This document shows, in pieces, positions 8,058 through 19,207 of a stretch of 22,763 nt of DNA (position 1 is the stretch's first letter; the number at the start of each line of letters is the position of its first letter). The notes under the pieces were generated by a model. The model was not told the origin of the DNA, did not search any database, and worked only from the letters and a program-made list of their open reading frames with translations. This stretch comes from a virus. The DNA lies in IMG/VR virus record IMGVR_UViG_3300014913_000085, positions 1-22,763 of that record. One strand, written 5' to 3'. The position numbers were made by a program, and so were the translations under genes.

Positions 8058-8065
8058 TTTAAATA
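8058..8065 (+). promoter_or_regulatory. Archaeal TATA box of HNH gene 1 (leaderless)
   Basis: TTTAAATA starts 29 nt before ATG 8087. Archaeal transcription begins about 25 nt after the box centre, which is at the ATG, and there is no SD close to the ATG. This predicts a leaderless mRNA. The same box and distance occur before HNH gene 2. Confidence 0.7.
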
Positions 8066-8086: not shown

Positions 8087-8545
8087 ATGAAACAACCAAA
8101 TAAAAATTGTGTACAATGTGGAAAAGCATTTTACACTCCACCATGCCTTGAAAGAATAAAGTTTTGCAGTTCAAAATGTTACCATGAAAATCGTAAAACT
8201 TGGAAACTTTCAGATGAATGGAAACAAAAAATCAGTGACAGTGTAAAGAAAAACTTACCTTCAACTGCTTGGAAGAAAGGACAACATTTTTCACCGGAAA
8301 CAGAATTTAAAAAAGGTGAACGACTAGAAGAAAATCATCCAAGATGGAAAGGTGGTAAAACAAGTTATAGAAGAATAGCAAAAAGAAACAAGAATTGGAT
8401 ATGTGAACAATGTGGAAAAAAAGAAAAACTACATGTGCACCACATAAACGAAAATAGAAACAATAACAACATTGAAAACTTAATGATATTATGTTGCAAA
8501 TGTCACATGATATTACATAAAGGAAAACTCCCAGACGGAGTATAA
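8087..8545 (+). CDS. Free-standing HNH homing endonuclease 1
   Basis: 152 residues. An N-terminal zinc knuckle (Cys8, Cys11, Cys27, Cys31) is followed by a NUMOD3-like DNA-binding helix region (LSDEWKQKISDSVKK, 41-55) and a basic HPRWKGGK turn. The HNH fold is at 105-144: Cys106/Cys109, His118-His119, Asn near 128-131, Cys136/Cys139 and His140/His144. Such enzymes cut DNA lacking the insertion and spread their own gene. It is wedged between connector and stopper genes with its own archaeal promoter, independent of the late operon. No intron boundary or split gene is visible around it. Confidence 0.9.
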   Translation: MKQPNKNCVQCGKAFYTPPCLERIKFCSSKCYHENRKTWKLSDEWKQKISDSVKKNLPSTAWKKGQHFSPETEFKKGERLEENHPRWKGGKTSYRRIAKRNKNWICEQCGKKEKLHVHHINENRNNNNIENLMILCCKCHMILHKGKLPDGV

Positions 8546-14177: not shown

Positions 14178-15089
14178 ATGGCTAATGGAGGAAAAATCAC
14201 AACAACAGGGTTGAACAACGCTCTGAATAGAGCTTACAAATCAACACCTGATTACACAGCACCGTATCAGTTCAAAGTAGGAATCGGATATACGACGCCT
14301 ACAACAACTGATACAGATCTAGAAATAGCAGTTCCAATAACTAACGGAACAGTGAACGACGATGGTGACAACCAATTAACTGGATCTAGTGGTGGAGATA
14401 ACACAACCGATAACACTACTACTTACAAACCAGGTGCCGGATTAACCGATAACACCGCTCAGAACTTGATAGCTAATAATACAGCAACAACTAAGATCTG
14501 GACAATCGCAGACCTAGCCACTAACGGGAACGACGTCGTAAGCACACAGTTCATAGGACAATGGCTATACATTAAAGACGCTGCTGCACTTGCAAAGATT
14601 GTAAGCGTGGAATTCAAATACGGCGAGGATAGCAGTAATTATTACAGCATCACAACCCTAGTAGCAAACTTAGCAGTTGGTTGGAACTGGATCACCGGCA
14701 ACACCGACACAGTAGCAGACCTAGACGAAACCGGAACAGTAACTGGAGACCTAGACACATTCATAATAGAAATCGTAACTAACAACGCAACTGATACTTT
14801 TGTAGCTGGAGACGTAATTTATGACTTGTTAAGACAATGGGAGACAAGTGACTTATTCAAAACATTCGTATCAGGCTACCCAACACTAGACGAAGTAAAC
14901 ATTCGAAGTACAATCAGATGTTACCTTACAACTCTAGAAGCAAACGGGTTCTTACTACGAGAAATAGCAATATATAATAATGACGGAACACCAATACTAT
15001 TAATGAGAGACGTTTACGACGAACATTCAAAAAGCAGCACAGACGAATTCGCATACGTCTTAAAAGACGAGATGGAGGAAGGAACATGA
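14178..15089 (+). CDS. Baseplate/fibre attachment protein with carbohydrate-binding-like middle domain
   Basis: 303 residues. The N-terminus (residues 1-60) is Thr-rich and beta; the C-terminus has LTTLEANGFLLREIAIYNNDGTP (residues about 251-272, in part), the strand pattern of phage tail proteins that join fibres to the baseplate. Between them, residues about 60-215 look like an inserted jelly-roll: GQWLYIKDAAAL, KYGEDSSNYYSI, VGWNWITG, then DVIYDLLRQWE. Such domains often bind glycans. The order of genes after the hub supports a distal-tail location. The next gene overlaps by 4 nt. Confidence 0.65.
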   Translation: MANGGKITTTGLNNALNRAYKSTPDYTAPYQFKVGIGYTTPTTTDTDLEIAVPITNGTVNDDGDNQLTGSSGGDNTTDNTTTYKPGAGLTDNTAQNLIANNTATTKIWTIADLATNGNDVVSTQFIGQWLYIKDAAALAKIVSVEFKYGEDSSNYYSITTLVANLAVGWNWITGNTDTVADLDETGTVTGDLDTFIIEIVTNNATDTFVAGDVIYDLLRQWETSDLFKTFVSGYPTLDEVNIRSTIRCYLTTLEANGFLLREIAIYNNDGTPILLMRDVYDEHSKSSTDEFAYVLKDEMEEGT

Positions 15090-15397
15090 GTATGAATACA
15101 TTAACACCTGAAGGAAAAGAGAAATACAAATCAAAATTCTTCACAGAAAAAGGCTATGAAACATTATTAACATTTACAAAGAGTTTAATCAAAGAAAGTT
15201 TCAAACATAAAGACGGTGGCTATCCATTCAAACTAGGAGTAGTGTTCGGGATCCCAATGTTTGACTGGGCTCAAGAATTCAAAACCCATGACGAAATGAT
15301 GGGTCGGATCAAGGCTTACATGCAGATCTTAGGAGTGGAAGAATTAATAGTTGACGATATCAAGTTTAGCTTTAAGCTTAAAGAGGATAAAAAATGA
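15086..15397 (+). CDS. Small hypothetical protein among fibre genes
   Basis: 103 residues, basic, mixed helix and strand, one Trp, no Cys, no membrane segment. It overlaps the genes on both sides by 4 nt (ATGA at the start, ATGA at the end), so it is certainly part of the same translation chain. No family recognised. The position between two fibre-like genes suggests a fibre chaperone or linker, which is only inference. Confidence 0.65.
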   Translation: MSMNTLTPEGKEKYKSKFFTEKGYETLLTFTKSLIKESFKHKDGGYPFKLGVVFGIPMFDWAQEFKTHDEMMGRIKAYMQILGVEELIVDDIKFSFKLKEDKK

Positions 15398-17201: not shown

Positions 17202-17816
17202 ATGAATAAGATTCAAAAGACACTCGTGGAGACAATCTTTAAAGGAGTAGAAGTAAAAGGCTTAATTCACACTGCTTTCAGGTACATGATTGACTCTAAG
17301 TATCGTAAGAAAGTTTTGATTAGCAAGTACCTAGAAGAACAACTTGTAAACGTCCCTGCAGACTTATACATTCAAAGCAGAGTTTTAAGAGGGAAAACAG
17401 CTGATCAAACAATCGTTAACATTTTAAAATGGGTTCGGAAAAACTACAAGTACAAACGAGACAAAGATAATTATGGCCGATTAGAATATTGGGCTAATAT
17501 CAGAGTTATCTGGGCTAAGAAAGAAGACGACTGCGACGGGTTAAACACCTTAGTATACGTCATGGCAAGAATGGCCGGCCTAAGCTCAGACCAACTATAC
17601 TGCATGATCGGAGACACACCCGTAGGAGGACACTTCTGGCTAACCTACTGGACCCCCAAACTAGGAAAGTATGGAAAAGTAGTCGCAATAGATGCAACTT
17701 ATTACCCAAACAACTGGAGCGTGAAGAACAGACCAGCGTTTAGGTACAGTAAAAAGAAATACCAAAACTCTTGGTACATCTTCAATGAGCGAATTTGTCT
17801 TCGTGGTAAAAAGTAA
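17202..17816 (+). CDS. Transglutaminase-like cysteine peptidase
   Basis: 204 residues. It has a clear catalytic triad of the transglutaminase-like fold: Cys111 in KKEDDCDGLNTLVYVMARMAG (residues 107-125 in part), His144 in VGGHFWLTYW, Asp164 in VAIDATYYP. Residues 64-83 (GKTADQTIVNILKWVRKNYK) are the usual N-terminal helices of such domains. The fold includes proteases and peptide hydrolases; in methanogen viruses pseudomurein endopeptidases share it, but no wall-binding repeats or signal peptide are visible here. A virion-associated or lysis role is inferred from its place after the fibres. C-terminus LRGKK recurs in the next gene. Confidence 0.75.
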   Translation: MNKIQKTLVETIFKGVEVKGLIHTAFRYMIDSKYRKKVLISKYLEEQLVNVPADLYIQSRVLRGKTADQTIVNILKWVRKNYKYKRDKDNYGRLEYWANIRVIWAKKEDDCDGLNTLVYVMARMAGLSSDQLYCMIGDTPVGGHFWLTYWTPKLGKYGKVVAIDATYYPNNWSVKNRPAFRYSKKKYQNSWYIFNERICLRGKK

Positions 17817-17818
17817 AA

Positions 17819-17826
17819 TTTAAATA
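17819..17826 (+). promoter_or_regulatory. Archaeal TATA box of HNH gene 2 (leaderless)
   Basis: TTTAAATA begins 30 nt before ATG 17849, with no SD between. It matches the promoter of HNH gene 1 in sequence and distance (flank TAAAATTTAAATAG versus TAAATTTTAAATAC), so both mobile genes bring the same kind of private promoter. Confidence 0.7.
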
Positions 17827-17848
17827 GTCAAACACCTTTTCATTGATT

Positions 17849-18412
17849 ATGAACCAAAAAGGAAGATATAAAAGAACAGAAGAACACAAAAAATTAATGT
17901 CCAAGATTAAATTAAAAAATAATCCTCTCAAAGGAGTATCCTCCTGTAGGAAAGGGATATTTAAATTTAAGATAACCAAAGAAGAATTAGCATATTTATA
18001 TTTAAAAAAGAAAATGTCTCTTTCGGAAATAGGTAAAAAATATCAAACATCAGGATCAACAATATTTCATTATATGAAAAGATACGAAATTCCAAGTAGG
18101 AAACTCAGTGATGCTTTAAAATTGAGAGATTTTAAAAATGAAAAACATCCTAATTGGAAAAATCAACCTAAAATACCTAGTTTACATAGATGGATAGAAA
18201 AAAACAAATCCAAACCTTTACAATGTGAAATTTGTAAAAGAACCATAAAATTAGAATTGAGTTGTACAGATCATAAATATACTAGAAATATAGAAGATTA
18301 TGAATGGCTATGTAGATCTTGCCATAGGAAAAAAGATTTTAACTATCAATCTTCACCATTAAAAAATATGAGTAGGTGGAAAGAAAAAATAACATTACGA
18401 GGAAAAAAATGA
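17849..18412 (+). CDS. Free-standing HNH endonuclease 2 with HTH domain
   Basis: 187 residues from ATG 17849; an upstream TTG at 17843 is less likely because the TATA spacing favours the ATG. Residues 1-25 (RYKRTEEHKKLMSKI) resemble NUMOD3. Residues 42-85 are a helix-turn-helix (ITKEELAYLYLKKKMSLSEIG, in part). A zinc-bound HNH domain follows: Cys126/Cys129, Asp141-His142, Asn147, Cys155/Cys158-His159. HPNWK (100-104) parallels HPRWK in HNH 1. The stop overlaps the next ATG (ATGA). The last residues ITLRGKK repeat the C-terminus of the peptidase gene before it. Confidence 0.85.
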   Translation: MNQKGRYKRTEEHKKLMSKIKLKNNPLKGVSSCRKGIFKFKITKEELAYLYLKKKMSLSEIGKKYQTSGSTIFHYMKRYEIPSRKLSDALKLRDFKNEKHPNWKNQPKIPSLHRWIEKNKSKPLQCEICKRTIKLELSCTDHKYTRNIEDYEWLCRSCHRKKDFNYQSSPLKNMSRWKEKITLRGKK

Positions 18413-18561
18413 ACGCAAAACAAATAGTGAAAATAGTGAGTAAATTCTTTTATGTAACCTTCAGTATGAACGAACAAAAACCAACCGTTAGAGTTATGAT
18501 CCCATTCTTCAAAGTAGGATTAGGCATGAGCTTAAACTTCTTCGTTGTAAAAAATAAATGA
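18409..18561 (+). CDS. Small hydrophobic-patch protein
   Basis: 50 residues. GAGG in CGAGGAAAAAA precedes the ATG, embedded in the end of the HNH 2 gene. Residues 10-18 and 28-47 are hydrophobic (FFYVTF; VMIPFFKVGLGMSLNFFVV), perhaps an amphipathic membrane-associated peptide. It overlaps both neighbours by 4 nt. It was probably the direct neighbour of the peptidase gene before HNH 2 arrived. No family recognised. Confidence 0.6.
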   Translation: MNAKQIVKIVSKFFYVTFSMNEQKPTVRVMIPFFKVGLGMSLNFFVVKNK

Positions 18562-18701: not shown

Positions 18702-18790
18702 ATAACACCAAATTTATAGTATTAGTGATAGATAGACAGAGCCTACTAGGAACAGCGATTAGATGGAAGAGAAAGATATTGAAGAGATAG
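18677..18790 (+). CDS. Possible 37-aa basic protein
   Basis: 37 residues, MATKRIKIDNTKFIVLVI at the start and a Lys/Arg-rich end. It overlaps the genes on both sides by 25-28 nt and has no convincing ribosome site. It spans the only gap (18702-18762) between them. Doubtful; the gap may instead hold a promoter (AAATTTATAG at about 18708-18717). Confidence 0.25.
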   Translation: MATKRIKIDNTKFIVLVIDRQSLLGTAIRWKRKILKR

Positions 18791-18978
18791 TTAACGGTAT
18801 CTGTCCTAGTTGTGATGCAGATACAGCATTCAAATACATCGGTACTCAAGAAGGAATAGCTGAATACAAAGATGTTCAACTATACAATTGCCTTGATTGT
18901 GGTACCACGATAAGTTTGAAAAAAATTTATCGAGCAGAATCAAAGGTGATAAAAAATGGACGAGAAGAGTATAGATGA
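18763..18978 (+). CDS. Zinc-ribbon mini-protein
   Basis: 71 residues. Two Cys pairs, CPSC (residues 14-17) and CLDC (residues 43-46), form a zinc ribbon. Between them is a beta segment with YIGTQEGIAEYKD. Such proteins bind nucleic acid or partner proteins, for example as transcription modifiers. It lies in the small-gene block and overlaps the next gene by 23 nt. A regulatory role is possible but not shown. Confidence 0.7.
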   Translation: MEEKDIEEIVNGICPSCDADTAFKYIGTQEGIAEYKDVQLYNCLDCGTTISLKKIYRAESKVIKNGREEYR

Positions 18979-19207
18979 AGTAGTTGACGGCAAAGAATTC
19001 TTTAATTACATGCGTACAACTATGAAGGCATACCAACAACAAATCAGAGCTTTAAGCGATCAATACAATAAGATCGCAGAGATGGTACAAGATATAGACC
19101 ATTACGAAGCACTTGGCTATAAAGTCAAATATTTCTTTAATGAGAAAACACAGAGTTATAGTTATGAAGTGAACGAAAAACCAGTGATAGGGTTTAGATC
19201 TAAATGA
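18956..19207 (+). CDS. Small helical hypothetical protein
   Basis: 83 residues. Residues 15-45 (MKAYQQQIRALSDQYNKIAEM region) form a likely coiled coil, followed by a beta hairpin (YKVKYFFNEKTQSYSYEV). AGGT with an eight-nt spacer precedes the ATG, the spacing seen at the capsid-region genes, so the start is well supported. The next gene overlaps by 4 nt. No family recognised. Confidence 0.7.
   Translation: MDEKSIDEVVDGKEFFNYMRTTMKAYQQQIRALSDQYNKIAEMVQDIDHYEALGYKVKYFFNEKTQSYSYEVNEKPVIGFRSK

Follow-up and report, generated by a model that had tools for sequence, protein, structure and literature searches.

The probable nuclease gene HNH 2, which follows a transglutaminase-like peptidase gene in a virus fragment, quite probably represents a homing element that replaces the end of its target gene and that is carried by tailed viruses of probably archaeal hosts, an interpretation built on the comparison of sequences. 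The window, by which we mean the whole stretch of 22,763 bases that was analysed, encodes portal, prohead protease and SU10-type major capsid genes according to Pfam. The interpretation draws on two similar gene ends written in different codons at this locus and on the same architecture, seen together with its empty site, in the pair of related records L032 and L033.

The peptidase and HNH 2 locus

The features of the locus, all on the + strand, are as follows.

17202..17816, +, gene of a transglutaminase-like peptidase, presumably the target (Transglut_core at 3.8e-5 and DUF553 at 1.4e-4 in Pfam, both passing the cut-off)
17787..17816, +, present end of the peptidase, ERICLRGKK and stop, probably element-borne as judged by codon use (minimum extent)
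17819..17825, +, TTTAAAT, a TATA-like box 30 bases before the ATG at 17849; no Shine–Dalgarno motif
17849..18412, +, HNH 2, with a NUMOD3-like start, a helix–turn–helix-like part and a C-terminal HNH/treble-clef-like region
18383..18412, +, EKITLRGKK and stop, the C-terminus of HNH 2, probably the displaced native end of the peptidase
18399..18403, +, GAGGA, Shine–Dalgarno-like site for the ORF at 18409
18409..18561, +, small ORF of 50 amino acids with its start within ATGA, a putative gene

The stop codon of the peptidase is separated from the ATG at 17849 by 32 bases, which places the nuclease directly downstream of the 3′ end of its target. The program-made ORF list starts HNH 2 at the TTG at 17843; the ATG at 17849, with the TATA-like box 30 bases ahead of it, is the likelier start. 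The peptidase gene terminates at a stop codon of its own (17816) and HNH 2 likewise begins with its own start codon, an organization different from that of a spliced intein or group I intron, and no Rfam family reached its gathering score anywhere in the window. The 50-amino-acid ORF at 18409 is regarded as only putative because it has no relative among the collected loci. Homologues of the peptidase are found behind fibre-like genes in L083, L084 and L076, and also in L075.

Two similar gene ends

The 3′ end of the peptidase reads GAG CGA ATT TGT CTT CGT GGT AAA AAG TAA, and that of HNH 2 reads GAA AAA ATA ACA TTA CGA GGA AAA AAA TGA. Seven of the nine residues are identical, with one codon identical, six synonymous, one conservative and one otherwise changed. 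The initial annotation had described a shared C-terminus in different synonymous codons; the repeat proved to be real and longer than claimed, extending over ERICLRGKK and EKITLRGKK, with six of the nine codons differing silently. It had also placed the start of the next gene and its ribosome site within the second copy, and indeed the stop of HNH 2 overlaps the ATG at 18409 in ATGA and GAGGA lies inside the end of HNH 2.

The in-register C-terminal score between the two ends is 36. The best scores among 5906 ORF ends from other loci, a set which still includes some overlapping records, are 29 against the HNH 2 end and 28 against the peptidase end, such that EKITLRGKK resembles the end of the peptidase more closely than does any of these ORF ends; as a displaced end it carries some doubt, since it is short and fused to the frame of the nuclease. 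Among 8973 collected ORFs of at least 30 residues, LRGKK ends are confined to the peptidase and HNH 2. Nor is this ending a family trait of the nuclease, a possibility that the initial annotation had recognized as damaging: HNH 2 alone ends in RGKK among 67 distinct HNH ORFs from several subfamilies.

The two copies differ in their codon usage. For the last nine codons of the peptidase the codon-adaptation value is 0.44, which places them at the 1.4% level among all nine-codon windows and makes them the lowest of the 22 window gene ends tested (the next lowest is at 13%); over 12 codons the peptidase end is at the 3.8% level and the next gene end at 15%. The HNH 2 copy has a value of 0.86, at the 72nd percentile, and is thus typical of the virus. 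Because its codon use is native-like and because the next ORF has its ribosome site and start within it, the HNH 2 copy appears to be the old end of the peptidase; at this locus, we therefore infer from the sequence that the end of HNH 2 is the native copy and that the present end of the peptidase was brought in.

HNH-free relatives and an empty-site pair

The proposal that HNH 2 had entered the 3′ end of the peptidase gene fits the local evidence, and the L032/L033 pair described below displays the same event directly; at the peptidase locus itself the insertion is still inferred, since no close HNH-free relative turned up. Single-protein scans of viral contigs, genome contigs and the phage collection yielded no close relative of the peptidase. 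The relatives without an HNH gene behind them (L083, L084, L075, L076 and L077) are 20–28% identical, and their different C-termini (YKLIHPYQRK, EYKLK, FRELRTKK, KDKLDRR and GSFTL, respectively) neither confirm nor refute the insertion, because this identity is too low for diagnosis. The L075 peptidase overlaps the following gene by ATGA. Used as queries, the fibre-like gene at 15394 had no match, and the gene at 14178 matched L110 (identical to G046), L111 and L112, the latter two of which stop 1.3–1.6 kb past the matched part. Among the 69 records with a related major capsid protein, the 50 longest were examined; the peptidase was matched in three of these and HNH 2 in three. The phage collection contained no match for the window DNA, HNH 1, an HNH 2 relative from L093, the capsid protein or an L124 gene, and the search for relatives of L124 returned the same contig only.

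L032, with an HNH gene, and L033, with none, belong to the same virus group as the window and share the same Mu-F-like head gene. Their common left flank is identical in 154 of 157 bases, and the next 51 bases agree in 27 of 51, a chimeric gene with a sharp drop in identity relative to the empty allele. The head gene of L032 ends in ALNPPFHPSCRTILRTVRQEDIKRGKS and stop in place of the VLAPPMHCNCRTVLRVVRVNKPNDTLQRGSL and stop of L033 (the gene ends being ...KTVRALNPPFHPSCRTILRTVRQEDIKRGKS and ...KTVRVLAPPMHCNCRTVLRVVRVNKPNDTLQRGSL, respectively). A 21-base stretch of the L033 gene end, TTTACAGAGAGGTAGTCTATG, is found behind the core of the L032 HNH gene, at 2762; it includes the ATG of the next gene, and within the HNH gene it is translated in a different frame and forms the tail of the protein. 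In L032 a new end and the HNH gene thus replace most of the old end, the last bases of which stand to the right. As the flank is 98% identical and the end agrees in only 27 of 51 bases, the new end came from elsewhere.

The HNH proteins of L034 and L050 are 84% identical, and the genes upstream of them both end in RFTxxEExxVL (in L034 this ending stands behind a frame break), an ending which is absent from the HNH-free L037 and L051. This sharing is a sign that the gene end travels with the nuclease. L034 was not itself counted as a case, the frame of its upstream gene being broken near the end.

Several further arrangements were observed at head genes and at a terminase-like gene. Free-standing HNH genes stand behind the same head-gene end in L011, L026, L032, L050, L053 and L083. 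Behind this end in L007, at 52–108, there is an apparent remnant of an HNH gene of which only the first and last codons are left; the gene is whole in L009 and L083. In L038 (1596–4738) a portal/head gene is interrupted at an HVN/CRT (HxN/CRT) site, with the HNH half in a second, overlapping frame; by its motifs the interrupting stretch is intein-like. By the same kind of motifs, the terminase-like gene of L047 (2296–4797) presumably contains an intein in its nucleotide-binding loop.

Displaced gene ends at other HNH genes

HNH genes were surveyed in relatives collected by capsid protein (69 loci), by HNH protein and by profile search of the collected loci. In L026 a gene ends in LRFIQRDNE, and LRFVQRE and a stop stand directly behind the HNH stop; in L002 the gene end YKGQVDIIRE recurs at the end of the HNH gene as YKGQIEIQRL, out of the HNH frame. 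In L124 the gene end KKLEEVL is matched by the HNH end EKLEEVL, with four of six shared codons synonymous, and the HNH copy contains GGAGG and overlaps the next start. L137 shows EIICLQENSK against DILCLQK, and L050 and L053 are similar but weaker 3′ cases. A mirror image at the gene start is found in L048, in which the HNH gene begins with MNNARVHY and the next gene with MDAARVHY; in the HNH-free L047 the gene begins with MDNNKTHY and overlaps the preceding gene by eight bases, like the HNH gene of L048, the preceding genes of the two records being not evidently alike. L147 is a second 5′ mirror case (MKFKRRICKCGNKAVQN and MIKFRKRKCRKCGNQAVQN), followed less clearly by L136 and L105. Most of the HNH genes surveyed have no such duplication of an end.

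A score of at least 28 was reached in ten of 91 tests of HNH neighbours versus 15 of 1974 control tests (Fisher p 3e-8; 2.5e-6 on removal of the doubtful L093 and L130, and 2e-5 when the window is also removed), under a scoring rule that was devised after the window pair was known and that was preceded by several score designs. In an earlier scoring from which paralogues had not been removed the window pair ranked below many tandem paralogues, and in another design it was fifth. In a further design it scored highest (37), with a p of 0.005 because one random draw equalled this score, the peptidase itself being among the controls. L124 is absent from the ten positives, its upstream gene having been displaced during gene picking by an overlapping antisense ORF, as are L032 and L053, which were recognized solely by comparison with relatives. 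Some of the 15 high-scoring control (non-HNH) tests represent fibre or other paralogues or repeated ribosome-site ends.

A number of matches were rejected or considered doubtful: that in L104, which is not adjacent and whose LKQF tail is widespread among its family; those in L130 and L141 (zinc-ribbon start; end like a ribosome site); the pair in L093 (neighbouring HNH genes); and the fibre and head-decoration matches (paralogues). In L087 (4883–6426) several genes end in near-identical DNA (GAGCTGGAGGG...TGA), apparently a repeated ribosome-site stretch. In the window, the neighbouring ORFs 18763–18978 and 18956–19207 are otherwise unlike and have similar starts with different codons (MEEKDIEEIVNG and MDEKSIDEVVDG); the L084 relative of the latter starts with MQDKSIDD. 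This is possibly the same kind of end duplication, with a zinc-ribbon-like ORF in place of the HNH gene.

The HNH proteins, their possible promoters and the probable host

The Pfam matches of HNH 2 lie below the cut-off (HNH at E 0.046 and NUMOD3 at 0.098), and those up to E 0.1 comprise HTH, NUMOD3, HNH and small zinc-binding or unrelated models, with no intein or LAGLIDADG model among them. In an alignment of 33 sequences H113, C126, C129, Y144, C155, C158, H159 and D163 of HNH 2 are invariant, which includes a C-x-x-C and a C-x-x-C-H motif. A structure model of HNH 2 (mean pLDDT 79, pTM 0.44) shows helices at 44–78, and two strands with a helix at 135–167; the last predicted helix, with the LRGKK tail, is of low confidence. 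HNH-named proteins are among the best viral structure matches (BFVD), from 1e-4 and with low TM-scores. A search of the PDB gave no match under E 0.001, the top match at E 0.39 being EcoKMcrA, which we take to be an HNH enzyme.

The window contains a second HNH gene, with a similar box ahead of it.

8058..8064, +, TTTAAAT, 29 bases before HNH 1
8087..8545, +, HNH 1 (Pfam HNH_3 5e-6)

HNH 1 adjoins the stop codon of the upstream gene, and its last codons (PDGV and stop) extend into intergenic DNA that is common to the HNH-free L009 (10080–10260, used as the empty-site comparison), which makes it an insertion at a stop codon with no duplicated gene end. Polymorphism of presence and absence was observed for HNH 1 against L009 and for the HNH gene of L032 against L033. 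HNH 1 likewise has no Shine–Dalgarno motif, and TTTAAAT ahead of both genes presumably reads as an archaeal leaderless promoter. None of the other 37 listed ORFs of the window has such a box at −28 to −30, and in the collection TTTAWAW at −28 to −30 precedes 12 of 67 HNH ORFs versus 48 of 2512 control ORFs.

When 371 genomes were drawn from the phylum to which a genome titled Candidatus Pacearchaeota archaeon belongs, two had a relative of the capsid protein with 52% identity; a scan of 395 genomes from the phylum of a Bacteroidia genome, run with no positive control, found it in none. From these sequence matches an archaeal host is likely for these tailed viruses, bearing in mind that viral contigs can be misbinned. 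L149–L152, which come from two genomes of the same phylum as the Pacearchaeota genome, contain relatives of the capsid gene (identity about 50%), a hint at the host.

Proposed mechanism and alternatives

In the mechanism that we propose, an HNH gene with its own TATA-like promoter would travel with a version of the last codons of its target gene. A double-strand cut in the empty allele would be repaired from the donor, whose gene end and HNH gene would be transferred together; exchange would presumably take place within the body of the gene at one flank and within the remnant or the next gene at the other. The body of the recipient peptidase would be joined to the diverged but protein-equivalent end of the donor, followed by the HNH gene, and the original last ∼30 bases of the recipient would be left to the right of the HNH gene. 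This remnant would still hold the signals of the next ORF (ribosome site and ATGA start), and its translation would now supply the nuclease with its C-terminus. The peptidase would remain intact and the target would be altered in the new allele. By analogy, it is plausible that the new end is resistant to its own nuclease; the recoding needs no such self-immunity, since divergence of the donor allele alone would give it.

It is unlikely that the repeat is a coincidence in which a gene end with an embedded ribosome site and an ATGA overlap tends to encode R-G-K-K-like residues and the peptidase happens to match it. Ends shaped by ribosome sites do recur within genomes (ELEGEK and ELEGGK in L087, EGEKLK in L092), and eight further ORFs in the list end in RGKK, several of them representing one gene in overlapping records; however, the peptidase copy is not beside a start and has no ribosome site. 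In a set of 202 ORFs that terminate in ATGA and embed a Shine–Dalgarno-like motif, the end of the peptidase scored 36 against HNH 2 and no higher than 24 against any other, which makes signal-driven convergence a poor explanation; nor can such signals account for displaced ends that are out of frame with the HNH gene (L002) or lie beyond its stop (L026). Still less probable is a local duplication of the peptidase end, between the copies of which the HNH gene later arrived and which drifted at synonymous positions, with no donor or homing. This likewise gives two similar ends around an insert and is compatible with the present locus taken alone, but there is no evident reason for the copy at the HNH end to have conserved its amino acids when six of the nine codons show silent differences, and in L032/L033 the contrast between a 98% identical flank and an end with 27 of 51 bases identical points to an origin elsewhere.

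A gene end that arrives from a donor together with the nuclease accommodates these observations, and a refinement compatible with it is that the recoding was selected specifically for escape from the element's own nuclease. The element-linked FBA1 allele in yeast is described, in the portion of the report consulted, as resistant to its own WHO nuclease (PMC7282813), whereas divergence of the donor alone explains the pattern here; we regard such selection as possible, though somewhat doubtful. On balance, we lean towards the wider proposition that prokaryotic viruses carry a widespread natural 'home-and-rescue' class, in which stand-alone HNH genes settle within the initial or final codons of genes that are needed, bring a diverged substitute for these codons and reuse the displaced end as their own start, tail or stop, with 3′ and 5′ versions that steadily reshuffle gene ends.

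Relation to known systems

The insertion sites of inteins and of intron homing endonucleases are conserved positions within coding sequence. HNH 2 differs from these in that there is no sign of splicing and in that the supplied end keeps the host gene whole; a likeness is seen in L038, where the intein-like HNH insertion lies in the head gene behind which other records have free-standing HNH genes.

The closest parallels are with two fungal systems. In the WHO elements of Torulaspora and Lachancea, a nuclease gene stands beside the 3′ end of a host gene, and in the homing model the donor end replaces the end of the host gene, giving a chimeric intact gene with the old end beyond the nuclease gene (Coughlan et al., 2020; PMC7282813). 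The consulted portion of that report documents cleavage and allele-specific resistance, as well as replacement of the 3′ end of FBA1 with the old end pushed rightwards (PMC7282813). The sharp drop in identity within the host gene resembles that in L032/L033; in contrast, the WHO proteins are intein–zinc-finger fusions related to HO on a yeast chromosome, whereas the present genes encode probable HNH nucleases in tailed viruses (PMC7282813). The FBA1 3′ part compared is about 400 bases, whereas the remnants here are about 20–30 bases and sometimes form the C-terminus of the nuclease, and the sections of the report consulted mention no 5′ version, whereas the viral HNH set has 5′ cases (PMC7282813). 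By Pfam, HNH 2 is not an HO/VDE-like intein-derived nuclease with zinc fingers.

In the mORFs of Glomus and Allomyces mitochondrial DNA, an endonuclease ORF brings a foreign C-terminal part and the native part is displaced downstream; the difference in atp6 is largely silent, with 63.5% nucleotide and 91% amino-acid identity in the part of the article considered (PMC3630166). A mostly silent difference is likewise seen at HNH 2, where the gene end was probably replaced and the native end displaced, but the Glomus nucleases are of the LAGLIDADG or GIY-YIG type, reside in fungal mitochondria and mostly have longer C-terminal parts (PMC3630166). HNH 2 would therefore work like a WHO element or an mORF, but is no member of the WHO family and is of a nuclease type unlike that of the Glomus mORFs. 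The free-standing homing endonucleases of T4-like phages (seg and mob) are similar in being stand-alone, in lying beside conserved viral genes and in the co-conversion of flanks; they differ in being described as intergenic insertions or as splitting genes, and the consulted part of the review mentions no replaced or displaced ends (PMC2988022). In a literature search that included phage homing nucleases and lay mostly outside subscription papers, we came across no prokaryotic virus described as having gene ends replaced and displaced in this way.

Stand-alone homing genes have mostly been described between genes or splitting them, whereas here they appear to enter and repair coding sequence. 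End replacement would explain odd, fast-changing ends of viral genes, would offer a simple sequence signature for homing sites and would be a natural counterpart to engineered home-and-rescue gene drives; the L032/L033 pair allows a direct test of it. In L093 (17035–18061) there are three consecutive HNH ORFs, which recall the tandem WHO clusters described in the portion of the yeast report consulted (PMC7282813).
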